Source: Caulifigura coniformis (GTDB lineage: Bacteria; Planctomycetota; Planctomycetia; Planctomycetales; Planctomycetaceae). Taken from it: a DNA stretch of 64,000 bases. Positions 18,491 through 31,482 of the stretch are shown piece by piece (positions within the stretch are counted from its first letter, which is position 1; each line of letters starts with the position of its first letter). The position numbers and the translations under genes were made by a program. The stretch lies in the NCBI RefSeq assembly GCF_007745175.1, contig NZ_CP036271.1, positions 4,352,314 to 4,416,313 of the forward strand, written 5' to 3'. The notes under the pieces are model-generated. The model ran no database searches, had not been told where the DNA came from, and saw only the letters and a program-made list of their open reading frames with translations.

Positions 18491-18543
18491 GTGCGAGAGA
18501 CAGGAATCGAACCTGCACGGGTTGCCCCACTGGATCCTAAGTC
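18491..18543 (-). repeat. attL: 53-bp direct repeat, 3' part of tRNA-Leu
   Basis: These 53 bases are identical to 30961-31013. They contain the 3' portion of the tRNA-Leu gene (anticodon loop through acceptor, minus strand) but no 5' half, so no functional tRNA is made here. The match ends sharply: the next bases differ on both sides. This is the far attachment site of the integrated element. Confidence 0.92.
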
Positions 18544-18647
18544 TTCGAAACCGGGCCGATGAGCGTTCGGTGATCTTCCGAACATTGTGAATTGCCGTAC
18601 CATCGTGCGGTGGTCGCGGAGGGCGAAACGCTCTACCAAGCCGCTTT

Positions 18648-18667
18648 AGGTAACTTTCTAGGTAACT
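18648..18667 (+). promoter_or_regulatory. Candidate left integrase arm sites (two AGGTAACT boxes)
   Basis: AGGTAACT occurs at 18648-18655 and again at 18660-18667, a 12-bp step. The same pair with the same step lies near the right end at 30877 and 30889. Such paired boxes near both ends of a tRNA-integrated element fit arm-type binding sites for the tyrosine integrase. A weaker variant, GAGTAACT, starts at 18680. Confidence 0.7.
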
Positions 18668-18766
18668 CCAGGTTCGCGGGAGTAACTACCCGCAGTGCTG
18701 GCCGACTCTAGCGAATCAATTCCCCTGCGAGCGTCGGTCGGCTGCCTGGTGAGTTGGGAAATAGGA

Positions 18767-19657
18767 ATGGGTTACGAGACGACACAGCGCACGGCGGCTT
18801 CCGCACTGTTCACCTGCTTCGAAGTGACCACAGGGCGAGTCTCCAGATGCATCGCCTATGCCATGCTCCGAGACAGCATTTGTCAGCTTCGCGAGCAGGT
18901 GACCAGTGAACCCGACCCGGCGGAGAGACAACGGCTACAAACTCATCTACGGGTCGGCGAGCTCATTCTCTCAAGGCATAGAGATGAACGGCCATTCGGG
19001 ACGGTGCCGCCCTTTTGGGATTTCAAAAGTGCATCCGAGTTTCTTGACGGCTTTCTCGCGGCAGTGGACGACGGTCTTGGGATGCATCTCCAGGAAGGAA
19101 AGCCGCTGTGTGATCCTGAATTCGGCTTGACCTACCGAGACACCGACGCCGACTTCGAGAAATATGCTTGGTGGGAAACGCAGCTTTGCGATCGCGTGCT
19201 GTCGGAAGAGGCGACGATCGTGCGATCATTCCGCTCTTTGCCTGACACCTGGCCTGTTTGCGACCACCGTACCTGGGTGTACGCGACCGCTCACGGCGCC
19301 GCGGCGCGTCTTCTCAACGAAGTGCTCTATCACGGGATTGTACCGATCATGGAGAACCTTGAAGAGATCCGCAAACTTCGCGGACGCGTGCTGCAGGAGC
19401 GGCTATTGGTCAGCATCAACTGCAAGCCACAACGCGCTCAGGAGTCGGAAGCGAGCGCTGATGTAAAAGAGCCAAAGCAGCTTCAGTACGAGTTCTGGGC
19501 GTCTCACCGAGCATGGTCGGCGGCAGAGGCAAAGAGGGCGTACGAAAAGACCTACGATACAGCGATTCCTTCAGTACGGGCGTTCACGAAAGCGTGCGAG
19601 CGGTGGGCCAAACAGGAGGGGCTTCCATTGCTCGGGCGGCGACGTAAGACGACATAA
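18767..19657 (+). CDS. Unknown protein of the mobile element
   Basis: A 296-residue protein with no domain I recognise. It is soluble and charged, with several aromatic-rich helices (FWDFKSASEFLDGFLAAVDDG, TWVYATAHGAAARLLNEVLYHGIVP) and a basic C-terminus (GLPLLGRRRKTT). The last 90 residues (FWASHRAWSAAEAKRAYEKTYDT) could be a DNA-contacting helical domain, but this is only a guess. Codon use looks less GC-biased than in the chromosomal genes. The ATG at 18767 was chosen; the frame is open to 18695. It is the first gene inside attL. Confidence 0.65.
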   Translation: MGYETTQRTAASALFTCFEVTTGRVSRCIAYAMLRDSICQLREQVTSEPDPAERQRLQTHLRVGELILSRHRDERPFGTVPPFWDFKSASEFLDGFLAAVDDGLGMHLQEGKPLCDPEFGLTYRDTDADFEKYAWWETQLCDRVLSEEATIVRSFRSLPDTWPVCDHRTWVYATAHGAAARLLNEVLYHGIVPIMENLEEIRKLRGRVLQERLLVSINCKPQRAQESEASADVKEPKQLQYEFWASHRAWSAAEAKRAYEKTYDTAIPSVRAFTKACERWAKQEGLPLLGRRRKTT

Positions 19658-19790
19658 CGCGACGGGCTGGGAAATGTTGCGACACGCGTCTCGCGCCTAC
19701 TTCAATTCGCAACCGCATTAGCTCTGATAGCTCCCGAACAGGCCACCGTCGACCTGGTGGCCATTCTTAGTTCAATGGGAGCTTCCGAAG

Positions 19791-20000
19791 ATGGCAGTAG
19801 CTCAAGCATTGCCGGTCATTCAAGCGGGTGTTTCTTACCCGCTGCCAGTGTTCATGAAACTTGTGAACATGGGCCGCCACGCGATCCGGGTCGCGCGAAG
19901 GAACGGTCTCGATGTCCGATATGTTGGGAACCAAGGCTTCGTGACGGGAGACGCCTGGCTCAAGTATCTCGAAGAGCACGGCGAGCAATCGTTTCGCTGA
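19791..20000 (+). CDS. Small excisionase-like HTH protein
   Basis: A 69-residue protein whose centre, PVFMKLVNMGRHAIRVARRNGLDVRYVGNQGFVTGDAWLKYLEEHG, follows the helix-turn-helix plus wing pattern of excisionase/MerR-like DNA-binding proteins (HTH_17 type). A position just upstream of the initiator-like gene, in a tRNA-integrated element, fits a recombination directionality factor or a repressor. The similarity is structural rather than motif-exact, so the role is tentative. Confidence 0.65.
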   Translation: MAVAQALPVIQAGVSYPLPVFMKLVNMGRHAIRVARRNGLDVRYVGNQGFVTGDAWLKYLEEHGEQSFR

Positions 20001-20101
20001 CGTGCTGGGGTGAGTGCGCCCCAATTCGCGGCACGCTTGAAACGGCGAAGGCCGGCTGACACCGGCCCCCACCCACTTCGAAACTTGGAGCATTCTCACG
20101 G

Positions 20102-21232
20102 ATGGAGCCTCAATCGGCAAGAAGGCCGCTGACCACTCACTTGTCTGAGCAGTCCGCCGGTTCGTCGAAGGCGGGAATCCACCGTCGCCGACAGCTTGAG
20201 TGGGACTTCACAGCTCGCGGCCACCAGCTGCGAATGCTCGATGGGGCCGTGTTTGGGCGTTCCTATCCAGCACCGGGTGGGAAGAATGTCAGCGGAGCTG
20301 CACTGAAGTCAGTTCTGCGCGTCATTGACAGCCATGCCCGCCAGAAAAGCAGTTGCTTCGCTTCGATCGAGATCATTGCCAAAGAAGCGTGCTACTCAAA
20401 AAGCGTCGTCAAGAGAGCGATCGCCGTTCTACGTGACGAGTTCGGGATCCTCATGGAGGAAGAAATTCGCGACGCGTGTGGCCACCGCTTTCGATTTCAC
20501 CGCACGATCTGCTGGTCCAACCTCGCACCATTTGCCGAGTCCCAAGCGGTTGACGAGAGGTCCGCTCCTTCTCAACCCGAACGCCGCCCAGAAACCACCA
20601 GTCAAAGCCCCAGGGACCACAACGGACAAGCCCAGAGACCACGAGAGAGGGCCCCAGGGACCACGAGGGGAAACCTGACTACTAATGGAAGCGCAAATGA
20701 ACCGCCACCTCCAATCGTGACGGTCGCGACCGTCGACCGGGCGGCGGCGGAGCTTTCAGAACTTGGAGTCGAATGGCCAGGGGCAGCCCTTCAGGCTGCT
20801 CGTGCGGCCAAGCCGGAGGAGCATGTGCTCGCGATCCTCTCGTATTTCCGAGAACACGCGCCACGAAACGGATGGGGGCCAGGCGCTCTAGTTCAACGAC
20901 TTAGGAATTCGCGACATCACATCGCGATCGAGCGAGGCTGGCCGCAAGCAGCACCGAAGGCAATCCAGTCGAAACAACGTTCTGACGAGCTGCAGAAGAG
21001 GCAGGCCCAGGACGACGAACAAAAGCGAAAGGCCGAGGCTGACGCATCCGCCGCGGCAAGACGTGAGATTGAGCTCGGCCCCCATCTCGACAGCATGGCG
21101 CTCATCCAACAGCACGACCTCGCGCAACGTGTCTCCCGAGAACTCCACACTCACTTCCAACGTCGCGGGATGACGCCTTACGTGCGACAGCAATTGCTTC
21201 GGAAACTTGAACTGGAGGCAGTCAACAAATGA
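20102..21232 (+). CDS. Replication-initiator-like protein with iterons inside its gene
   Basis: A 376-residue protein. Residues 60-137 look like a winged-helix domain of the replication-initiator type (SCFASIEIIAKEACYSKSVV then KRAIAVLRDEFGIL). Residues 150-200 are a polar linker rich in Pro, Arg and Thr. Residues 200-270 form a second small helical domain, and 285-325 a charged coiled coil. The linker-coding DNA holds four repeats at an exact 22-bp step. This arrangement, N-terminal DNA-binding domain, origin repeats in the linker and a C-terminal partner domain, is that of lambda O. I infer an initiator; there is no sequence proof of helicase-loader contact. Confidence 0.65.
   Translation: MEPQSARRPLTTHLSEQSAGSSKAGIHRRRQLEWDFTARGHQLRMLDGAVFGRSYPAPGGKNVSGAALKSVLRVIDSHARQKSSCFASIEIIAKEACYSKSVVKRAIAVLRDEFGILMEEEIRDACGHRFRFHRTICWSNLAPFAESQAVDERSAPSQPERRPETTSQSPRDHNGQAQRPRERAPGTTRGNLTTNGSANEPPPPIVTVATVDRAAAELSELGVEWPGAALQAARAAKPEEHVLAILSYFREHAPRNGWGPGALVQRLRNSRHHIAIERGWPQAAPKAIQSKQRSDELQKRQAQDDEQKRKAEADASAAARREIELGPHLDSMALIQQHDLAQRVSRELHTHFQRRGMTPYVRQQLLRKLELEAVNK
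20587..20674 (+). repeat. Four 22-bp iteron-like repeats (candidate origin)
   Basis: The core CCCAGRRACCAC starts at 20587, 20609, 20631 and 20653, exactly 22 bp apart each time. The cores read CCCAGAAACCAC, CCCAGGGACCAC, CCCAGAGACCAC and CCCAGGGACCAC. Because 22 is not a multiple of three, each copy is read in a different frame by the surrounding gene and the encoded peptide is not repeated, so selection acted on the DNA. A comparatively AT-rich stretch follows at about 20670-20702. This fits an initiator-binding origin. Confidence 0.8.
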
Positions 21233-21543
21233 GCGATCCTTCCGATATGGATCGAACCCGGGTCGAGGGCCCGACTGCCCCAGGACCATGCTGCAGTTGC
21301 CTGTCCAAGTTGGAGCCAGAATTGCGAGAGGTTGATGCACGGTTACCGGCACTTTCGAGCCGATGGACCGCCGTTTCACATTGCGGCGCGCCGCCGCGGT
21401 CAACTGGCCGGCAAGACCACCTTCGTTGGCGTGCTGCAGACTGTCCCGGGCGACTGAATCACTTCGCCTCGGATTCTTTTATGACAGCCCGTGTCAGGGG
21501 CCGCGAGTACGGCGGCAATCGATCGACTTCAGCGGAGCTCACG
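21233..21543. other. Stretch without a confident gene; possible 40-residue ORF
   Basis: An in-frame reading from an ATG at 21229, overlapping the previous stop, runs into the HTH gene at 21544. Its first 105 codons encode an unlikely Cys/Arg/Ser-rich sequence. A different frame holds a short open frame at 21335-21457 (MHGYRHFRADGPPFHIAARR onward, 40 residues) with a protein-like composition. Neither is supported by a recognisable family. Confidence 0.3.
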
Positions 21544-21849
21544 ATGGGAAAGACGACAACTCGCAAACGTGTGGTCAAACGGGACATGCCGACTCCGAGG
21601 CTGGTGGCCAAGGTTCGCGAATTGACCGGCCTTTCCGTCGCTCAAGTTGGCCAGCTCGTGGGCGTCGACCGCCAGACGGTCTGGAAATGGCAGCACGGTG
21701 CACCGGCTCGCGCTCGGCACCTGGTCGATCTGCGTTTGATCATCAGCAAGCCGGCCGAAGCGAGGGAACTGGCTGTCCGCGCCGAGCGTGGTCTCTTGCA
21801 TCTCGGTTCCGTCGCGAAGCTGATGAAGGCCTTGCAAGGGACGCGGTGA
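21544..21849 (+). CDS. Small XRE-like HTH protein
   Basis: A 101-residue protein. The segment LVAKVRELTGLSVAQVGQLVGVDRQTVWKWQHGAPAR (about residues 19-55) is a helix-turn-helix of the XRE/Cro type, with a conserved recognition helix and a Trp-Lys-Trp turn. The N-terminal TTTRKRVVKR is strongly basic. The ATG at 21544 has a GGAG ribosome site; longer readings from 21229 look artificial. The next gene starts on the last base of its stop codon, so the two are translationally coupled. It is probably a regulator of element genes. Confidence 0.65.
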   Translation: MGKTTTRKRVVKRDMPTPRLVAKVRELTGLSVAQVGQLVGVDRQTVWKWQHGAPARARHLVDLRLIISKPAEARELAVRAERGLLHLGSVAKLMKALQGTR

Positions 21850-22184
21850 TGTTCGAAACCCCGACGTTTCAGCCAGACCCGATCGAGCCGGAATCCGCTC
21901 GGAACGCGCGAGAAATTGCGCGAGTCTTCCGCATCTCGTCGCATCGTGCGGCGGAACTGCTCGAAGTGGATCATGGCCACTGGAAGGCGATTCTGGCCGG
22001 GACGCGGCCTGCACGGCCGGGACTGGCCTCGCTGATGCAGTCCATCGTCGACACCCCGCTGTTCAAGTTGCGGGCTCGCCTCGTTGACGAGCTCGAAAAG
22101 ACCGACCGGCCCATCGAGCAGCTTTGCGCCGGGAAAACCGCTGCGCGGATTTACGGCGTATGGGAGCAACGCAGACCGAAGTAG
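21849..22184 (+). CDS. Small HTH-like protein coupled to the upstream regulator
   Basis: A 111-residue protein that starts with an ATG overlapping the previous stop by one base. Residues 20-65 (AREIARVFRISSHRAAELLEVDHGHWKAILAG) resemble a helix-turn-helix, followed by a helical tail (LFKLRARLVDELEKTDRPIE). With its neighbour it forms a two-gene unit of possible DNA-binding proteins. A toxin-antitoxin pair is conceivable but nothing in the sequence proves it. Confidence 0.55.
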   Translation: MFETPTFQPDPIEPESARNAREIARVFRISSHRAAELLEVDHGHWKAILAGTRPARPGLASLMQSIVDTPLFKLRARLVDELEKTDRPIEQLCAGKTAARIYGVWEQRRPK

Positions 22185-22227
22185 TTTCCCCCTTCAATGG
22201 AAGTCTTTTTCTCGCAAGGAAGTGACC

Positions 22228-22998
22228 ATGATCAAGAACACGAAGGCCGCGGCGGGCGTCGTCGCAACATCCCCATTCCTCACACTGGAACAAGCCGCGG
22301 CCGAGCTGCGGATTGAACAGATCAACGTGCTGCGGTTGATTGCCCGCGGACGGCTCCTGGGCATTCGGGCCGGCGACGACTGGAAGGTCCGGCCAGCCGA
22401 CCTCGAAGAGTACGTCGCCCGGGGGGCGCAGGACCTCCAGGCACCGGGCTGGGGTCGCGATGAGGATCGCCCCGCGGACCCGGACGGGAGCTCGCAGGCG
22501 CATGCGGCCGGTCAGATTGTTCGAAAGGCAATGAAGACCCTCATCCCGGCATCGCTCGATTCGATCTCCAAGGACGGACGAGGCCGCTATCCGGCCTTCC
22601 TGATGCTCTCCGGCGCGACGATCCGGCCTCTCTTGAACCAGGTCTATTCTCCGCTCGTCCGTTTCAAAGACGCGGAGCCGTCTCGCTACAAGACGCTGAA
22701 AGAAGCTCTGGCCACAGCGGGTCTCCGGTCGAAGGCTGTCTCCCGCATAGTGAATCAGTCGGCTTCCGAGAGCGCCCTCAACCCTCAATCAATCCGCGAA
22801 CGGCTGTTCGGCGACGGTCCGGAAGCCTTCGAGCGGAAGATGAAGGCGGCGTGGGACGTGCTCATGAGCGACGGCATTCCGGCCCGACACACCTACACTT
22901 CTCCGCAGCCAGGCGAGGACGCTGTGTCGATCGGCTTTCGAGTTCGGTACAGCGATCTCGGGCTCGACTACGTCACGGCCCGCGAACTGGCGTTTTGA
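22228..22998 (+). CDS. HTH_17 (excisionase-type) domain protein with unknown C-terminal domain
   Basis: A 256-residue protein. Residues 15-65 (FLTLEQAAAELRIEQINVLRLIARGRLLGIR...WKVRPADLEEYVARG) match the HTH_17/excisionase fold. The C-terminal part from residue 95 (IVRKAMKTLIPASL...FGDGPEAFERKMKAAWDVLMSDGIP) is not recognised. The ATG at 22228 has an AAGGA ribosome site. It is followed by a large non-coding repeat region, so it may bind there. Confidence 0.65.
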   Translation: MIKNTKAAAGVVATSPFLTLEQAAAELRIEQINVLRLIARGRLLGIRAGDDWKVRPADLEEYVARGAQDLQAPGWGRDEDRPADPDGSSQAHAAGQIVRKAMKTLIPASLDSISKDGRGRYPAFLMLSGATIRPLLNQVYSPLVRFKDAEPSRYKTLKEALATAGLRSKAVSRIVNQSASESALNPQSIRERLFGDGPEAFERKMKAAWDVLMSDGIPARHTYTSPQPGEDAVSIGFRVRYSDLGLDYVTARELAF

Positions 22999-23567
22999 AA
23001 AGCGGTAAACCTTGCGAGCGTGCGGCGGCGGGGCTTTTCAGAAACCGGGCTCCGTCGCCGCACGTCCTTTCAGACCGTGGCGACGCCGCCGAACGCGTCA
23101 GGATCCCGGTGCCACGTCATACGCCCGGGATTATCGCTTTCCGAGAACCCAATCATTTCAGCAGCGGCGAGTCACTCCCCGCCGTCGCAGGTCCATGCCC
23201 TCGGCGCGTGCGAGAAAAACCGCTTCTCACTCGACCCCAGCTCACCGTTCGTCGCGTCGCCCCCTTCCTCGCCGAACCGGTTGCAGTACTCCCCTGGCTC
23301 GAGCACGTCCACGAGAGAAGATTTCCGCATCGTCAGACAGTAGACTTCGCAGCCCGGCTCAATCGGGCCCAGCGCCGCCGCACTCGAACCCCGCGAACCG
23401 CGGCCCTCTAACTGAGGGCAGGAATCCCGTGCCAATCGCACAGAATCCGCCCCGCCGCGCCACAGGCATCCCGCTGTCGGGAAGGGCTGCCACGGCCGCA
23501 TGCCGCAAACGGATCGAACGGCGCCGCCGCCAGCCCCGCCCGATGGGCTGCTGAGCGTCGCTGCGGA

Positions 23568-23754
23568 GTCACGGCCCCGCGTCACAGATTGTCGGAACTC
23601 GGTCACACCGCGCAGCCCGGAAACGTCCCGCCAGTTTGCGATTGCGGCGTCACACTCCGGCCGGCGGGTCACGACATCGGGGCACGCTTCCGCCGAGCGG
23701 CTTCCGCCCGCGGCGTCACACTTCCGCCGGGGTGGTCACGGCGGCCGCGTCACA
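23568..23754 (+). repeat. Array of eight same-strand GTCAC boxes
   Basis: GTCAC starts at 23568, 23581, 23602, 23649, 23668, 23715, 23735 and 23749, always on the plus strand; five copies are GTCACA. The steps are 13, 21, 47, 19, 47, 20 and 14 bp. Pairs about 20 bp apart recur every 66-68 bp and the spacing pattern is nearly symmetric. This looks like a multi-site protein-binding array. Confidence 0.65.
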
Positions 23755-23892
23755 CCGCCTGCAGCGACGCTCTCTACCGCGTCGGGGCCCGTTCCGGGCG
23801 GAGCCGATGTTGCCGAGCTGCTGTGAGAACGCCGCGGTGCGAATTCTGCGCGAAACAAAGTGTCTCACTTTAGCCGACTGCCTCGGCGGCCC

Positions 23893-23931
23893 CACCGTGT
23901 GCGTGGAGAAAAGTAGTACCTACACCGTGTG
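23893..23931 (+). promoter_or_regulatory. Paired CACCGTGTG boxes upstream of the OLD-family nuclease
   Basis: CACCGTGTG occurs at 23893-23901 and 23923-23931, exactly 30 bp apart. The second copy lies inside a short palindrome, ACACCGTGT. They sit 70-110 bp before the start of the nuclease gene and could be repressor sites. Confidence 0.45.
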
Positions 23932-24003
23932 GCGATGTTTGTTCTGGAGTTGCTCCGGGGATAACGTAGGGCTTCTTGGGCAATCTCAAAACTGGTGGGC
24001 AAC

Positions 24004-25815
24004 ATGGCTAAGAAAAAGGCGGCTGCAACTGAACAGCAGGAGGCACCGACTGAACTCGACAACGTCGGAACGAAGCTGCGGAAGCTAGTCATCAAGAATT
24101 TCGGGTGCATCGGCAGCACGCCTGTCGAGATCGACCTTGATGATGTGGTGGTGCTGGTCGGTCGGAACAACACTGGAAAGAGCACGATTCTCCGGGCATA
24201 CCAGGTGATCATGACGTCATCCGCTCCCAAACTGGAATTAGATGACTTTCCAGAATCCAAAGTCGACGCCGCCGCGTTGCCCGAAATCGAGCTGCACACA
24301 CGCATCATTGACAACCCACCTGCAAGCAAGTGGATCGCCAAGATCGACGGCGAAGATATTGTTCGCGAACGATGGACTTGGACGAAGGACAAGGTGGTGG
24401 GCAAGCGACAAGGTTTTGATGTCGCATCAGACCAATGGTCAGATCAGGTACCTTGGGGTGCCGCGAATGTGGCGAATTCGCGCCGGCCTAGGCCGCACAG
24501 AATCGACGCGTTCGGCAGTCCAGAAGAGCAAACCGAGGCTGTTGTGAAGTTGCTACTTGCAGCCCTTTTGAGCGCGATCGGCAACCTTCCCCACACCGAG
24601 GCCGGAGAAGACGGAGAACTGAAAGAGACGGAGTACGGCAAGCTGTTGAAGGATATTGCCAGCTTGCAGAGAGCGGTCGTCGAACAAGTGCAGGACCAGA
24701 TCGATCACGCGCAGCAGCAGCTAACGGAAGTCATTCAGAATGTTTTTCGAGGATATCGGATTGAGTTTGACGCGAAGCCTGAGGAAGACATCACGAGCTG
24801 CCTCAATTTTTTCAAACCTGGGGCGCTACTGCGAATGGGACCGAAGGACGGCCACATGAGTTCGGCCGAACGTCAGGGAAGTGGCGCTAGACGGACGTTG
24901 ATGTGGGCCGCCCTGAAATACGCGGCTGACAAGAAAGCCGACGAAGACGCGAAACCGAATTTGTTGTTGATGGACGAGCCAGAGCTTTGCCTGCATCCCA
25001 ATGCAGTTCGCGAGGCGTGCAACGTACTCTACGACCTTCCTAAGACCGGCAAGTGGCAGGTCATGGTGACAACACACTCACCGGCATTTATCGATTTGTC
25101 TCGAGACAACACCACCGTTGTGCGGGTTGAACGTGATGCAGACGGTGTTGTGATCAGGGGAACGACAGTCTTCAGACCGGAGAAGGCGAAGCTGAGCGAT
25201 GACGAGAAGGAGGAACTCAAGATGCTCAACCTCTGCGACCCTTCCCTTTGCGAGTTCTTTTTCGGGGGGAGGACTGTGATCGTCGAGGGCGATACCGAGT
25301 ACACCGCCTTCCGCTTCTTGCTGGACAAGTTCCCTGATGACCCGCGGTTGAAGGACGTTCACGTCGTTCGTGCTCGTGGCAAGTACACCATTTGTTTGGT
25401 CGCCAAGATTCTTAATCAGTTCAACTCGCGCTATGCGGTGCTCCACGACTGCGATGCCCCGAAGGTGTTGCGGAAGAAAAAGGGGTCAAACGAAAAGGAA
25501 GAAATCGTCAATCCTGCCTGGACCAACAACAGCAGGATTCGCGACGCGGTGAGTGACTCAGTTCTCGCTAAGCGCGCTCGGCTGGTTGCGCTCATCCCCC
25601 ACTTCGAAGGTGCGTTCTTCGGTGAGGAACTGTCTGGTGAAAAGCCGGTGAATGCATGGACGCGGTTGAAAAACGACAACGACATTGCCGAGCAGGTGAA
25701 GGGCCTGCTTTGCAGCCTGCTCGATTTCAACGAACAGGTTCCTACAACCTGTTCGGAATGGTCTGATGAGCAGGCACTTCTCGCCCGCTACGAGCAGTTT
25801 GCAAGCTCGACCTGA
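24004..25815 (+). CDS. OLD-family ATP-dependent endonuclease (ATPase plus Toprim)
   Basis: A 603-residue class 1 OLD (overcoming lysogenisation defect) protein. The N-terminal ABC-type ATPase has Walker A GRNNTGKS (residues 53-60), a degenerate signature region GSGARRTLMWAAL (from 293), Walker B LLLMDEPE (320-327) and the switch histidine in THSP (357-360). The C-terminal Toprim domain has the catalytic Glu in VIVEGDTEY (Glu428) and the acidic pair in HDCDAPK (482-484). Such proteins cut DNA and act in phage defence; GajA of Gabija is a relative. No GajB-like helicase lies next to it. GC content looks lower than in the neighbours. An upstream GTG at 23995 is an alternative start. Confidence 0.88.
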   Translation: MAKKKAAATEQQEAPTELDNVGTKLRKLVIKNFGCIGSTPVEIDLDDVVVLVGRNNTGKSTILRAYQVIMTSSAPKLELDDFPESKVDAAALPEIELHTRIIDNPPASKWIAKIDGEDIVRERWTWTKDKVVGKRQGFDVASDQWSDQVPWGAANVANSRRPRPHRIDAFGSPEEQTEAVVKLLLAALLSAIGNLPHTEAGEDGELKETEYGKLLKDIASLQRAVVEQVQDQIDHAQQQLTEVIQNVFRGYRIEFDAKPEEDITSCLNFFKPGALLRMGPKDGHMSSAERQGSGARRTLMWAALKYAADKKADEDAKPNLLLMDEPELCLHPNAVREACNVLYDLPKTGKWQVMVTTHSPAFIDLSRDNTTVVRVERDADGVVIRGTTVFRPEKAKLSDDEKEELKMLNLCDPSLCEFFFGGRTVIVEGDTEYTAFRFLLDKFPDDPRLKDVHVVRARGKYTICLVAKILNQFNSRYAVLHDCDAPKVLRKKKGSNEKEEIVNPAWTNNSRIRDAVSDSVLAKRARLVALIPHFEGAFFGEELSGEKPVNAWTRLKNDNDIAEQVKGLLCSLLDFNEQVPTTCSEWSDEQALLARYEQFASST

Positions 25816-25863
25816 AAGGTCCTCGCGACAAAGGCTTGGCTGGGGGGAAATAGCTGTGCGATT

Positions 25864-26068
25864 TCACACGGCCCTCAGCTCAGCAAGGGCCCGGCGAAAC
25901 GAGTCGGCGACGATTTCCGAGCCTGGATCCTGCAATCGGTCAACATCAAACTGGAGATTCACGCCCTTGGAGCCGTGAAAAGACGCTTACAAATAAAGCG
26001 AAGTCCCAAACCTTCAGAGCGACCGTTTCACCTTCATGAAGTTCATTCAGCATTGTCTCGACCAGCAT
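25864..26068 (-). pseudogene. Frameshifted small gene remnant
   Basis: On the minus strand an ATG at 26068 opens MLVETMLNELHEGETVALKV and continues WDFALFVSVF. Removing one base in the run of four T (plus strand A at 25978-25981) joins this to HGSKGVNLQFDVDRLQDPGS, continuing EIVADSFRRALAELRAV before a stop at 25864. Together they give a natural-looking 67-residue protein. The family is unknown. It may be the decayed 3' end of a larger cargo gene. Confidence 0.35.
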
Positions 26069-26129
26069 CGTTTTGGCCCCGGCTCATGAAGGGCGCGCGG
26101 CAGACTATAGCCCCTCGCTTTTCAACCAG

Positions 26130-26190
26130 TGCCCAGAGAGGACTCAAACCTCCATGAGAGTGATCCAACTAGCTCCTGAAGCTGGACGCG
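26130..26190 (-). other. Possible degenerate tRNA fragment
   Basis: Read on the minus strand, GGAGGTTTGAGTCCTCT forms a T-arm-like hairpin followed by CTGGGCA, as at a tRNA 3' end. AGCTAGTTGGAT just before it resembles a D-arm. No matching 5' acceptor strand or anticodon arm was found. It could be an old attachment-site scar. This is a weak call. Confidence 0.22.
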
Positions 26191-26380
26191 TTTCGCAGCT
26201 TGCCCGACTAGAACACCCCTCGTAAATGGGATCATGTACTGGGATGCTGCAATAGCCGCCAGAGAGTGGCCGAACTCACCGGTTCATGGTGCGGAAATGG
26301 CAGCTCTCGTTCCCGGTTACCGCCCCGGTGATGCTGAGGACAGCAATCAACTTCTTGCACCCGATGCTCCCTCGCGCCAG

Positions 26381-27496
26381 TTAGCGTGCACCACCGCTCG
26401 GCGATGACATCACGTCCGCCATCTCGCGAAGCATCTGGACTATGTTCTCGCGCTCAGCTCTTTTCAGGCGGTGGTGTCTCGCGTCGCAGTATTCTCGAGA
26501 GTTCCTGGCAAGTCGCGTCGTGGTTGCAATTAGTCCTGACGCCGCCGCCCTGACGTTTACATCGGCCCACAGGGCCTTGACCTCGTTGATCTTTACCTCG
26601 TTCGTTCCGCTGTAGCGCTTGCATTGGATTAGGATGACTTCGGGGCCGGCAAAGACCCTGTCCTTTTCGAGGATGATGTCGACGCCGTCGTCGCCTCTGC
26701 CGGGCCCTATCTTGATCCTGTAGCCCAATCGCTTGTAGTACTCGGCCACCAGGTACTCGAACTGGCGCCAGTGGATCCTGTTGAGGTCTTCTCCCTGGGC
26801 GTTCAAGTAGTCGATGAACCGCTGGTCGAAGTAGGTCTCCGGGTCAGCCGGCGCTGCTTCGCTCTCGAACAGATCGTCGAGTTGGACGATGCCATTCCAT
26901 GACTTTGAAGTCGGAAGCCTGTCCATCACGTTGCGGATAGCGAACGCCCGCTTGATGTCCTGCCATTCAGGCAGAAGCGTCAGGCCTCGCACATGCTCGG
27001 TGGGTTCTTCACTCATCCCGTTCAGAAGCGCAGAAAGGTCCTGAACTGCTAAGTACCCCGTGGGCAAACGAAAATCGGGTTCGTCTTCGACTTTGCCGAG
27101 TCGATGCAGATGCGCCCGCACGAACCGGATGAGGAGCCCGATACTGTCCAAAGGCTCAGAAATCGCACCGACGCGGTGCAGCAGCAAAACCAGTCCCGAT
27201 TCGACCTCTCCGCCTTCGAGTCGGATGACATCGAGCGGATCTCCACTCCACCAAGGAGTCACGTTACTCTCGGTTCTCTTTTTGAGAAGCGAAACGGCCT
27301 TGGGGACTGTGACGCCGACTCCAGCCTTGATGCCAGTGAGCTCAACGATGGTGTCGAGGAAGTACTGTCGAACACGCGTGACATGCATGGCGAGGCAAAG
27401 AGATCGGAGGGAAGGGGGGAAAGAACTGGCACCAGCTAACGTAGAGGCCGCCCTGATGCCGTTCAAGAACCCCTGAGCTTTGTCGTTGACTCGCAT
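26381..27496 (-). CDS. Mrr-like restriction endonuclease
   Basis: A 371-residue protein. The C-terminal domain from residue 240 has the Mrr_cat (PD-(D/E)XK) motifs: Glu247 in WRQFEYLVAEYYKRLGYRI, the Asp pair in GRGDDGVDI (residues 267-274) and the QCKR motif at 291-294. The first 230 residues are unrecognised and may sense the target. Mrr-type enzymes cut modified or foreign DNA. It converges on the OLD-family gene and is divergent from the second recombinase, with a long palindrome between. An internal Met at residue 37 is an alternative start. Confidence 0.82.
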   Translation of the reverse strand: MRVNDKAQGFLNGIRAASTLAGASSFPPSLRSLCLAMHVTRVRQYFLDTIVELTGIKAGVGVTVPKAVSLLKKRTESNVTPWWSGDPLDVIRLEGGEVESGLVLLLHRVGAISEPLDSIGLLIRFVRAHLHRLGKVEDEPDFRLPTGYLAVQDLSALLNGMSEEPTEHVRGLTLLPEWQDIKRAFAIRNVMDRLPTSKSWNGIVQLDDLFESEAAPADPETYFDQRFIDYLNAQGEDLNRIHWRQFEYLVAEYYKRLGYRIKIGPGRGDDGVDIILEKDRVFAGPEVILIQCKRYSGTNEVKINEVKALWADVNVRAAASGLIATTTRLARNSREYCDARHHRLKRAERENIVQMLREMADVMSSPSGGAR

Positions 27497-27865
27497 CGCC
27501 CCGCTGTGGCACCGTCAGAATGGCGGATGCGTGAACAACTTTCGGCGAGCGAAGAGCCCCCTGAACGCGGCGGTCGCGCCACGAGAAAAAGGCGATCGCG
27601 CGGACCAGCGAAGCAGCAGGCAGCCCCAAATGCAGGCGAGCCCGCGTCGCGTTGGAGAGCGGCACCGTCCCCACTATTGGGGAAAGTGCCGCTCTCCAAC
27701 GCGGCGCGCGATGCTTCTGTGTTTGAAGAGTGTAGTGTCGCGCCAGAACGGTAGTCGCGGACCGTTTGCAACTGAACCAAGCTGGCGTCTTCGATGCGCC
27801 GGCCCAAGCCTCTTTCGGGACCGCGACCCCGACTGAGGTTTTTTCTTTTGTCGATGAGGTCTGCC
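27497..27865. other. Divergent intergenic region with a long palindrome
   Basis: This 369-bp spacer separates the divergent Mrr-like and recombinase genes. Open frames within it give unnatural protein sequence. Its main feature is the palindrome at 27648-27703. Both promoters should lie here. Confidence 0.45.
27648..27703. repeat. 56-bp palindrome with perfect 18-bp arms
   Basis: CGCGTTGGAGAGCGGCAC (27648-27665) is the exact reverse complement of 27686-27703. The 20-bp centre holds a second small stem (TCCCC/GGGGA around ACTATT). No run of T follows on either strand, so it is unlikely to be a simple terminator. It sits between two divergent genes. Confidence 0.8.
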
Positions 27866-29644
27866 ATGGTCTCCGTCGCGGAAACCAAGAGAGACGACAC
27901 GCAGTGCAGAGCTGTCGCCCAACTCGCCGGTAACAAGAAAGCATCTTGCACCGCGCCGGCGACGCTCCAGGGCCTTCTGTGGACGCATTACCGCAAAGCT
28001 CATTCTCGGGCGTCCGAAGCAACGGTGATGCGGCTCCACTACGTCGTTCGCTCCGTTGATCGTTTCACCGGCAGGTTGACATTGGTCGATGATCTCACCG
28101 AGGAGCTGTTCAACCGATGGGTGGAGCACCGGGAGAACCTGGTCTCCGCGTCGACCGCGTATCACAACCGGGTAGACTTCTTGACGCTCTGGAGATGGGC
28201 CTCGGCAGCGGGCTATTGTTCGACACCGCTGCCAAGTTCGCTGCATCGAGTCTCCGCCGAACAACGGAACGATGCGGCCGACCAATCGGCTTCCGGGCTG
28301 ACGCTTCGCCAACTTCTTTGGGACCGGTACGTCCCGAGCCGCCAGAACCTGAAGCCGAGCAGCGCCAAGCTCATCGAATACTCGGTCCGTTCATTCCAGC
28401 GCTACGTCACACGCCCCGTTCTCGTTGAAGAGTTGTCGGAAGACTTCGTGATGCCATTCCTGGCTCATCGCCGGCGGACAGTGTCGCTGGAAACGGCCAA
28501 ACGCGAAGCATCCAATTTGTTGTGCCTGTGGCGATTCGCCCTGCGGAAGCGACTTTGTGACAACCCGTTGCCGGAGGATTGGGAACCGATTCGGCTGACG
28601 CGAAAGATCCCGCGAGCATGGTCACTGGAGGAGTTCGGCAGAATTCTTGATGCCGCCAGCCATCGTGCCGGGATGTTTCGAACCCTTCCCGTCCACGCTC
28701 GCGACTTCTGGACTGCGCTGCTGCTCTTCCTGTACGAGTCCGGCGCACGCATCGGAGCCACAATGTGCATGGAAACGGCTGATGTGGTTCTGCCCCGTGC
28801 GCAGGCGATTCTAAGAGCGGACTTCGCGAAGACTGGCATCGAGTCTGTGGTCGACCTTTCGCCCGAAGCCGTAATCGCGCTCCAGGCCATCTACGATCCC
28901 AATCGCCGGGTTTTGTTCGACTGGCCCTATGCCCGTCGACAGCTGTGGCTGGACTATCGAGACATCGTGGTCGATGCGGGGCTCGAGACGGTCAAGGGCG
29001 AGGGATTCCACAAGATTCGTCGGACTTCAGCGACGCAAGCGGTCATCGCAGCAGGATGGGATCATGCCCGAGTCGCTTTGGGACATAGCCAGGAAGCGAT
29101 GACGCGTCGCTACGTCGACCTTCGGCAAGTCCCTCGACCGAAGATCCACCTGCCGCTCCCGAGCATCGTTCAGACGACCGCAGCGGCCAGCAGGCTCACC
29201 ATTGCGCCAAGCGACGGGCGGCCCGTCGCCCTCATCGCTTATCGCCCTGATCTGGCCGGCCGCCCTGCTGAGCCGATCGAGCCCGTCGACTCGCGGCTGT
29301 GGGAATTCCGACGCGGTGGTTGGGCTCAATATGGCGGCGGAAAGTGGCTGCGAATCAATTCCAGGTGGTTTGAGGCGCTCAAGGTGCTGGCCGCGGGAAC
29401 GGTGATTGACACCAATCGAGTGCAGCTTCTGTGGTCCCCTTCGCCCACGGATCCCATGCCGCCAAAGGCGATCGGCCGGGCCATCGGCAAGCTCCGCAAT
29501 TGGCTCCGGCGCGTGATGGACGCGCCGGCCGGGTTCGATCCGCTCCCATCGGCTGGCAAGCAACCGACGCGATGGCGCCTTCAGCAGCCGAGCGCGTCGG
29601 TCTCTGATCACCAGGTCCCGTCTCCGCTCGATCACGCCGGTTGA
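27866..29644 (+). CDS. Tyrosine recombinase with duplicated core-binding domain
   Basis: A 592-residue site-specific recombinase. Two copies of the N-terminal SAM-like core-binding domain lie at about 34-124 (LQGLLWTHYRKAHSRASEAT...) and 147-236 (LRQLLWDRYVPSRQNLKPSS...). Each ends in a W-aromatic helix and an N/S-x-L-P turn. The catalytic domain has Arg295 (ESGARIG), His382 and Arg385 (FHKIRRTS), His407 (LGHSQ) and the nucleophile Tyr416 (RRYVDL). Residues 450-592 are an extra C-terminal region with a possible winged helix. The ATG at 27866 has a GAGG ribosome site. It is unlike the integrase at 29726 and may resolve or invert DNA. Confidence 0.85.
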   Translation: MVSVAETKRDDTQCRAVAQLAGNKKASCTAPATLQGLLWTHYRKAHSRASEATVMRLHYVVRSVDRFTGRLTLVDDLTEELFNRWVEHRENLVSASTAYHNRVDFLTLWRWASAAGYCSTPLPSSLHRVSAEQRNDAADQSASGLTLRQLLWDRYVPSRQNLKPSSAKLIEYSVRSFQRYVTRPVLVEELSEDFVMPFLAHRRRTVSLETAKREASNLLCLWRFALRKRLCDNPLPEDWEPIRLTRKIPRAWSLEEFGRILDAASHRAGMFRTLPVHARDFWTALLLFLYESGARIGATMCMETADVVLPRAQAILRADFAKTGIESVVDLSPEAVIALQAIYDPNRRVLFDWPYARRQLWLDYRDIVVDAGLETVKGEGFHKIRRTSATQAVIAAGWDHARVALGHSQEAMTRRYVDLRQVPRPKIHLPLPSIVQTTAAASRLTIAPSDGRPVALIAYRPDLAGRPAEPIEPVDSRLWEFRRGGWAQYGGGKWLRINSRWFEALKVLAAGTVIDTNRVQLLWSPSPTDPMPPKAIGRAIGKLRNWLRRVMDAPAGFDPLPSAGKQPTRWRLQQPSASVSDHQVPSPLDHAG

Positions 29645-29725
29645 GCAGCACACGCATCGAAATCCGCCAGGACGCGCGGGGTTCTACGCACGGATGCGCG
29701 CCCTCAGATCTCGGAGAGCATTCCC

Positions 29726-30958
29726 GTGTCACATGAAACCGTCAAAGTCCACGTCGTCAACTACGGTCGCGCAACGCTCTACATGAGGTATCTCGACCCG
29801 ACGACGGGGAAGCATGTCGCGCGCTCAACAGGCACCAAGAAACAAGCGGAGGCAGAAAAAGCCGCCGGCAAATGGGAAGCGGAGCTGCGAGAGGGACGGT
29901 TCAAGCCGCGGTCGCGAATCACATGGGCCGAGTTTCGCCGCCGATACGAGGACGAAGCGCTGTCTGCTCTGGCCAATGGTTCAGCTGAGCGATATGGGAC
30001 CGTCCTCGACGACGTCGAGTCGACGATCTCCCCTGCCCGGCCGGCCGATATGACAGCGGAGAAGATCAGCCAGTGGCAGCAGTCGCTTCGTGCCCGGAAG
30101 CTGTCTGAAAACACGATCCGCAGCTACTCGTCGACACTGCGGGCGGCGCTCAACTGGGCGCACGAGGTTGGCATGGTGCATCACCCGGCCAAAGTCCGAA
30201 TGCCGGCCAGGGCGACCGTGGGCAAGGTGATGAAAGGCCGCCCGATCACGACCGAGGAATTCGACCGAATGCTCGCGAAGGTGTCCCTCGTCGTCACGGG
30301 GAAGCGGCCGCAGGGCGCGGCGGAGCGAGTCGCCGGGTGGGAGTTCACGCTTCGCGGTTTGTGGTGGAGCGGCCTGAGACTCGGAGAAGCGCTGGCTCTT
30401 ACTTGGGATGGCCGGGAACTTTCAATCGACCTGGCCGGGAAGCGGCCCATGCTCCGCATCTCTGCGGGCTCAGAGAAAGGACACAAGGACCGGATCCTGC
30501 CGTTAGCGCCCGAGGCCGCCGAATTCTTCCTGGCGGTCCCTGAAGCTCATCGCACGGGGTTCGTGTTCAATCCCCTGTCTTCGCGTGGAACACGCTTGCC
30601 CGCCCGCGAAGCCGGACGAGTGATCTCCCTGATCGGTGAGAAAGCCGGGGTGAAGGTGAACGAAGGGACGTACAAGGGCCGATCGCATGTGAAGTTCGCC
30701 AGCGCTCACGATCTCCGCCGCGCGTTCGGCCTTCGATGGGCGGGTCGGGTCATGCCCGCTGTGCTTCAGCAGCTCATGCGACACGAGAACATCGAGACGA
30801 CGCTGCGGTACTACGTTGGCTCCGATGCCGACGGAATGGCAGAGATTCTCTATGCCGCAGTCCCCAAAGCGCCGTTAGGTAACTCTTCAGGTAACTCTGC
30901 CCCTCAGCACGAAGAGGCCGCCGACCAAGCTTGCGACGCAAACCATGTCAGCGGTTGA
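29726..30958 (+). CDS. int: Tyrosine integrase of the element
   Basis: A 410-residue lambda-type integrase. The N-terminal arm-binding-like domain spans residues 1-60 (YGRATLYMRYLDPTTGKHV). A SAM-like core-binding domain follows at about 65-155. The catalytic domain has Arg218 (WSGLRLGEAL), a Lys in EKGHKDR (251-254), His328 and Arg331 (AHDLRRAF), His353 (MRHEN) and a Tyr at 362-363 (TLRYYVG). The GTG start at 29726 has a GGAG ribosome site. The gene ends two bases before the attR repeat and its last codons carry two AGGTAACT boxes. It almost certainly inserted the element. Confidence 0.93.
   Translation: MSHETVKVHVVNYGRATLYMRYLDPTTGKHVARSTGTKKQAEAEKAAGKWEAELREGRFKPRSRITWAEFRRRYEDEALSALANGSAERYGTVLDDVESTISPARPADMTAEKISQWQQSLRARKLSENTIRSYSSTLRAALNWAHEVGMVHHPAKVRMPARATVGKVMKGRPITTEEFDRMLAKVSLVVTGKRPQGAAERVAGWEFTLRGLWWSGLRLGEALALTWDGRELSIDLAGKRPMLRISAGSEKGHKDRILPLAPEAAEFFLAVPEAHRTGFVFNPLSSRGTRLPAREAGRVISLIGEKAGVKVNEGTYKGRSHVKFASAHDLRRAFGLRWAGRVMPAVLQQLMRHENIETTLRYYVGSDADGMAEILYAAVPKAPLGNSSGNSAPQHEEAADQACDANHVSG
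30877..30896 (+). promoter_or_regulatory. Candidate right integrase arm sites (two AGGTAACT boxes)
   Basis: AGGTAACT lies at 30877-30884 and 30889-30896, 12 bp apart, inside the 3' end of the integrase gene and 65-84 bp from the attR core. Spacing and orientation match the left pair at 18648/18660. Confidence 0.7.
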
Positions 30959-30960
30959 AG

Positions 30961-31482
<522 letters not shown>

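Follow-up and report, generated by a model that had tools for sequence, protein, structure and literature searches.

A candidate iteron origin within an initiator-like gene of a planctomycete integrative element

Introduction

Among the genes of a planctomycete integrative element is one that resembles phage replication initiators and contains four evenly spaced direct repeats in its own coding sequence. Does this gene carry the origin at which its product would act, and could the element replicate from it after excision? Two known layouts provide the background to this question. In bacteriophage λ, passages of PMC5043065 place the origin iterons within the linker of the O gene, followed by an A+T-rich stretch. 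For pSK41, passages of PMC5703833 describe a Rep protein whose four Rep boxes are central in the rep gene and bound by the N-terminal domain, whose linker is dispensable, and whose C-terminal domain is conserved within the genus only. According to the same passages, an N-terminal domain of the pfam13730 type together with its origin, about 500 bp in all, replaces that of pSK41 in pPR9.

The whole stretch of DNA that was analysed, 64 kb in length, is referred to here as the window, and Table 1 presents an overview of its features. Null sets for the repeat statistics were drawn from the window, from control ORFs, from the loci fetched and from Markov sequences.

Table 1. Features of the integrative element and of its initiator-like gene in window coordinates.
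Feature	Position	Strand	Basis
Integrative element, ~12.5 kb, at tRNA-Leu 3′ end	18491..31013	.	53-bp repeat, two tyrosine recombinases, lower G+C
attL-like copy, perfect 53-bp repeat	18491..18543	.	direct repeat of tRNA-Leu 3′ end
Initiator-like gene of 376 aa with an N-terminal HTH domain, a linker that holds the repeats, and a C-terminal domain	20102..21232	+	PHROG 391, Pfam HTH_36
Four 22-bp iteron-like direct repeats	20587..20674	+	core positions, codon-shuffle test, array scan
A+T-richer stretch, candidate unwinding element	20674..20702	+	directly 3′ of repeats; limits set by eye
C-terminal domain (profile A2)	20693..21232	+	nearly confined to a single planctomycete family
Small HTH gene, regulator-like	21544..21849	+	Pfam HTH_23 (E 1e-5) and weak matches to PHROG regulators
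ORF next to small HTH gene	21849..22184		scanned with Pfam and PHROG
HTH_17 gene, excisionase-like	22228..22998	+	Pfam HTH_17, PHROG 66
Cluster of eight same-strand GTCAC, second candidate cis site	23568..23753	+	non-coding gap 22998-23995
OLD-family ATPase/TOPRIM gene	23995..25815		PADLOC Old, E 6.9e-88
Mrr-type nuclease gene	26381..27496	-	
Tyrosine recombinase	27794..29644	+	Pfam PF00589
Tyrosine recombinase adjoining tRNA-Leu repeat	29726..30958	+	Pfam PF00589
attR-like copy, 53-bp repeat	30961..31013	.	inside tRNA-Leu 30960-31043 (-)

An integrative element at tRNA-Leu

The gene lies in a segment with the features of an integrative element, namely a flanking repeat of a tRNA 3′ end and a tyrosine recombinase beside that repeat. 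Its G+C content is 60.3%, compared with 63.5% and 63.7% in the two flanks. By virtue of the 53-bp tRNA-Leu repeat and the two tyrosine recombinases, the integrative element proposed in the initial annotation is well supported. In an empty-site comparison, the left-flank gene had no match in one other genome of the genus. The OLD-family and Mrr-type genes (23995-27496) are likely to be defence cargo.

No capsid, terminase, other phage structural or conjugation genes were recognised among the element ORFs scanned with Pfam and PHROG. Such a gene content would suit a copy in which gene and origin are as proposed below and which has itself decayed into a defective remnant, past excision or replication. 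Since the 53-bp repeats are identical and the ORFs of both recombinases and of the initiator are all open, this course of events is unlikely.

The initiator-like gene and its repeat array

The description of the gene as initiator-like is upheld by a match of the N-terminal half of its product (aa 71-195) to PHROG 391, 'replication initiation O-like', at E 9.2e-7, a match that is weak beside that of λ O itself. Five more replication-initiation PHROGs were matched more weakly, and a weak Pfam HTH_36 (PF13730) match reached 22.1 bits, under the cut-off of 25. Past aa 201, the protein has no Pfam or PHROG match. The linker is rich in Pro, Arg and Ser and disorder-like in composition. AlphaFold models made without an alignment were of low confidence, with pLDDT averaging 64.1 over the C-terminal part and 60.6 over the N-terminal part, a Foldseek search of the N-terminal model against the PDB returned nothing at E ≤0.001, and a PDB sequence search gave weak HTH matches only, the best being 2d1h at E 0.017; no claim is therefore made about the fold.

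The array consists of the cores CCCAGAAACCAC, CCCAGGGACCAC, CCCAGAGACCAC and CCCAGGGACCAC, which start at 20587, 20609, 20631 and 20653. These positions reproduce the four 12-bp cores at an exact 22-bp period noted at the outset (spacings of 22, 22 and 22 bp), with 10 of the 12 core columns invariant. The array occupies nucleotides 486-573 of the gene, or roughly codons 162-191. It is preceded by the HTH region, where the Pfam match covers aa 75-111, and followed by the C-terminal domain; the repeats do sit in an inter-domain linker, as had been claimed. The iterons are not evidently palindromic.

Three lines of evidence bear on whether chance could have produced this pattern. With up to one mismatch allowed, the core CCCAGRGACCAC is confined to the array on both strands of the 64-kb window. 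A scan of the window + strand for four copies at a constant period of 15-40 bp, in which no fewer than 10 of the 12 columns are invariant, yielded the array at 20587 as the single qualifying place, and none of 150 first-order Markov sequences of 64 kb each contained such an array. Finally, the linker has a repeat score of 10, compared with a mean of 3.3 and a maximum of 7 in 300 codon shuffles (p = 1/301). The array is confirmed as real and not a product of chance. By a coarser repeat score it is less striking, in that 2.1% of 1-kb blocks (family genes included) equal the window gene; other genes are equalled by 0.9%-12% of blocks, and L005, L008, L011 and L015 by 48-99%, so that this score separates the family poorly.

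Turning to base composition, the best 24 nt within the 60 nt after the array are 62% A+T, as compared with 46% before the array and a gene average of 40%.

Recurrence of linker arrays among relatives

The window protein has matches in 10 of the 170 genomes of its planctomycete family, its own genome included, and a profile built from 18 C-terminal domains has matches in 40 of the 170. When a phylum-wide sample was searched with the C-terminal profile, 13 of 392 genomes matched, 12 of which belong to the same family. No match to the window protein was obtained in the searches of genome contigs, viral contigs, plasmids and phages; alignment A3 and L023 likewise found none among the viral contigs, nor did L018 and L023 among the phages. 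No paper on this gene family was among the literature matches listed. A second match in the window's own genome (L091, near 6493104) covers only the end of the C-terminal domain (model positions 79-180) in an open frame of 164 aa and is possibly a relic.

The loci fetched yielded 49 distinct genes that have the C-terminal domain, the window gene counted in, and for 39 of them the 240 nt before the domain were scored against 300 codon shuffles. The other ten (L005, L009, L011, L015, L027, L073, L077, L091, L092 and the second fragment in L071) were left out on the grounds that the part before the domain was missing or shorter than 300 nt, or that the domain start was uncovered by the match. Since the close pairs L004/L080, L081/L082, L003/L007 and L023/L063 were kept, some of the 39 scored genes are not independent of each other; L063 and L048 probably represent one record.

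Linker repeats exceed codon shuffling in 32 of the 39 genes at p<0.05 and in 26 at p<0.01. Where each gene was scored from 560 nt before the domain to the domain end, the strongest repeat fell in the linker in 34 of 39. As a control, the most disorder-like stretch of other ORFs reached p<0.05 in 14 of 199 cases, and a score of at least 8 was attained by 26 of 39 relatives versus 6 of 199 control ORFs. There is no significant array in six of the scored genes (L072, L076, L087, L090, L093 and L094), nor in L008, a relative by its N-terminal half only, which stands outside the 49 with a C-terminal part that has no profile match. The array of L024 lies further upstream than the linker stretch. The initial annotation had named an absence of the repeats from homologous genes as evidence against an origin; given the 32 relatives with linker repeats, as set against six genes and L008 without them, that outcome did not occur. 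Among the relatives, arrays recur in a constant place, the linker, and the cores and periods vary.

By a hand count, 73 of 89 spacings are of 11, 12 or 21-25 bp and so come close to one or two turns of the helix. As 59 of the 89 are divisible by three, the repeats of many relatives are in frame and give rise to repeated peptides. The argument that a period not divisible by three excludes a protein repeat consequently stands for the window gene, where the out-of-frame 22 is informative, and fails as a general rule.

The abundance of in-frame spacings could be taken as the mark of slippage, which in a fast-evolving, low-complexity linker would leave repeats as a by-product with no function in the DNA. 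The Pro/Arg/Ser-rich, disorder-like linker would lend itself to this process, and copy number does shift in one close pair: the 12-bp CCCGGGTATCAC unit is present in two copies in the gene of the circular replicon pPLIM01 and in three in a relative of 96-97% identity, a change that keeps the frame. Slippage is nevertheless very improbable when weighed against the out-of-frame period of the window array, the failure of composition-keeping codon shuffles to give arrays, and the rarity of scores of 8 or more in ORF stretches that are equally disorder-like. The clustering of spacings around one or two turns of the helix also speaks against it, as do iterons that move with the N-terminal domain (see below).

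In the relatives, the best 24 nt after the arrays average 62% A+T, versus 55% before them and 53% in random gene stretches (p 0.004). As A+T is higher downstream of the array in only 21 of 33 genes, the A+T-rich side of the arrays amounts to a trend. One side observation concerns L007, where three 21-bp direct repeats (29-nt matches) at 1047-1117 lie about 300 bp past the end of the family gene, outside the linkers; none are reported for its near-twin L003.

Genomic settings of the family

One member of the family is located on pPLIM01 of Planctopirus limnophila (NC_014149.1), a circular molecule of 37,010 bp that encodes ParB as well as phage head and tail proteins. PLIM_RS21975 (WP_013112521.1) belongs to the family by its C-terminal profile and carries linker repeats. 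It is annotated as 'hypothetical protein' and by itself matches neither Pfam nor PHROG; eight further pPLIM01 proteins, scanned from a record of 54 features, include no initiator-like one. A TraDIS study of P. limnophila reports just one essential gene, of unknown function, on the plasmid, and because the passages of PMC10632474 leave the gene unnamed, its identity with PLIM_RS21975 is put forward only as a prediction. According to passages of PMC11958385, planctomycete model strains are without a replicative plasmid; the planctomycete plasmidome paper of Quinonero-Coronel (2024) is cited there. On pPLIM01 (L049 19799-21029), the initiator-like gene shares its first 8 nt with a gene annotated as carbon storage regulator.

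Among ten relatives scanned, six have replication-initiation PHROG matches at E 0.01, and four, including the pPLIM01 gene, have no replication PHROG match. Of 18 family genes from ten genomes, 11 have an integrase match (PF00589, E 1e-6) no more than 5 kb away (hand count), and a tRNA gene is present in six of ten fetched loci. In one of these, from genome G395, a 55-bp tRNA-Leu repeat (L040, 4932 and 17674) bounds a second element of about 12.7 kb with a family gene, L010. The other five tRNA-bearing loci have no tRNA repeat of at least 18 bp in the fetched stretch. A homologue of the window's HTH_17 gene also lies inside the G395 element.

A second candidate cis site

Within the window element, the gene array is not the sole candidate for a cis-acting site. 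The GTCAC cluster in the gap before the OLD-family gene packs its eight copies into 186 bp, partly on a composite period of about 66 bp. Among 200 second-order Markov simulations, no pentamer count reached eight in 190 bp, the maximum being 7 in two of the 200. The cluster may serve as an operator, as an additional site of replication or as the actual origin. In the last case, the repeats within the gene would bind the encoded protein for autoregulation or incompatibility, and replication would begin elsewhere, for example at 23568-23753. An excess over chance in an intergenic gap of about 1 kb would be compatible with such an arrangement, and non-coding origins are usual, as in PLE, a Vibrio cholerae satellite that passages of PMC7145576 describe as integrative, with its own RepA_N initiator and an iteron-type non-coding origin. 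Against this, the GTCAC spacings are irregular (13, 21, 47, 19, 47, 20 and 14), and the linker arrays recur at a fixed place in relatives, with an A+T-richer stretch that tends to come after them. An origin away from the gene array is quite unlikely.

Comparison with known initiators and a proposed mechanism

The favored reading, to which a probability of roughly 0.78 is assigned, is that the window gene contains an initiator-embedded iteron origin that would work in the manner of λ O and its origin or of pSK41 Rep, with a clade-restricted C-terminal domain. Counted against it are the arrayless genes (six of 39, and L008), the four of ten relatives that lack a replication PHROG, a residual C-terminal correlation described below, an A+T bias that is only a trend, the GTCAC cluster, and the missing loader.

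The comparison with λ, which the initial annotation had put forward, applies to one half of the protein and to the layout. As in λ O, the iteron array is inside the initiator gene, in a linker between the N-terminal DNA-binding and C-terminal parts. The A+T-richer stretch 3′ of the iterons, a candidate unwinding element, is weaker in the window than its counterpart in λ. The four λ iterons are spaced 20, 24 and 23 bp apart (J02459.1), against 22, 22 and 22 in the window. When λ O was put through the repeat test as a positive control, it behaved in the same way (score 12, p 1/301), and the offsets of 20, 44 and 67 are those of the annotated λ iterons; the coding sequence in J02459.1 is labelled as another product and was taken as O by its place and a PHROG 277 match. 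PHROG 391 is common to λ O and the window protein. Since the two match opposite ends of this profile, only the N-terminal half of the window protein is O-like by this test. The likeness ends at the C-terminal domain, for which no similarity was detected in the window protein and where λ O matches PHROG 391, and at the P-type helicase loader, which was not recognised among the element ORFs scanned (Pfam, PHROG).

The RepA_N initiators of pSK41 and pPR9 are an equally close parallel. As in pSK41 Rep, candidate binding sites, here as sequence only, are central in the gene. Neither the window protein, at E 0.1, nor any of ten relatives, at E 0.01, matches PF06970 (RepA_N), and the window protein differs further from RepA_N initiators in its other C-terminal domain, in its location on an integrative element and not a plasmid, and in its hosts. 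Because there is no RepA_N match, and because the λ comparison failed for both the C-terminal domain and a P-type loader, the window gene is best placed in a family of its own, alike in kind to λ O and RepA_N. Within the family, the pPLIM01 gene departs from the window gene in its 12-bp units and its circular phage-plasmid setting. With PLE, the window shares an integrative element that has its own initiator and an iteron-type origin, both of them candidates in the window; the repeats lie inside the gene in the window, unlike PLE, where the origin is non-coding and the initiator is of the RepA_N family.

Under the favored reading, the N-terminal helix-turn-helix domain would bind the four 22-bp iterons within its own gene. 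Being about two helical turns apart, the iterons are positioned on one face of the DNA. The bound array could then distort or open the adjacent A+T-richer stretch, and the C-terminal domain may recruit a host helicase or primase. The excised circle would subsequently replicate, most likely in the theta mode. Such a gene offers Planctomycetota a candidate replicon module, so far unannotated in pPLIM01, and origins are predicted in genes of 40 of 170 genomes of one planctomycete family, with arrays in most of the scored genes.

Exchange of the N-terminal domain and iterons as a unit

Two family genes of genome G048 document how N-terminal domain and iterons vary. L028 and L081 are 44% identical in their N-terminal domains and 89% identical in their C-terminal domains, and their iterons differ, being of the CGGGTCAC and TGATCA types, respectively. 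At the DNA level, the two share 70-95% identity over some 450 bp upstream of the gene and 80-95% through the C-terminal part. Between these stretches, from the gene start to the iteron end (about 0.5 kb), identity is only 33-62%, with one 78% patch; past the gene it drops again. The same pattern is seen between L028 and L082, a close relative of L081. In this pair, the N-terminal domain and the iterons have been exchanged naturally as a single cassette, an exchange of the type seen in pPR9, whose pfam13730 domain is also the one weakly matched by the window N-terminus.

Across the family, the similarity of iterons was compared with that of the protein domains by a Mantel test on 33 genes, made up of L024 and the 32 genes with p<0.05. 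When C-terminal similarity is controlled for, iteron and N-terminal similarity have a partial correlation of 0.23 (p 0.0005), or 0.17 (p 0.008) in 27 non-redundant genes. A smaller partial correlation of 0.14-0.15 with the C-terminal domain is left (p 0.02-0.03), so the Mantel test taken alone is modest. In this one family, a candidate initiator and its putative gene-embedded binding sites can be seen to change together with the reading frame kept.

A broader proposal can be drawn up, for which the odds are about even. In planctomycete mobile elements, the N-terminal domain and iterons would form a swappable specificity cassette of about 0.5 kb placed before a clade-restricted, host-facing C-terminal domain; swaps would change replication specificity, i.e. 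incompatibility, and the same family would provide both the pPLIM01 origin and the gene found to be essential there by TraDIS. If true, the swapped specificity would allow several elements of this type to coexist in a single genome. Genome G048 has four family genes.

A different front end is seen in L006 (988-2034): this member of the family matches another type of initiator, PHROG 2509, in its N-terminal half at E 7.9e-49. By these matches, the C-terminal domain is combined with different front ends. The linker of L006 is A+T-rich and has weak repeats (p 0.03).
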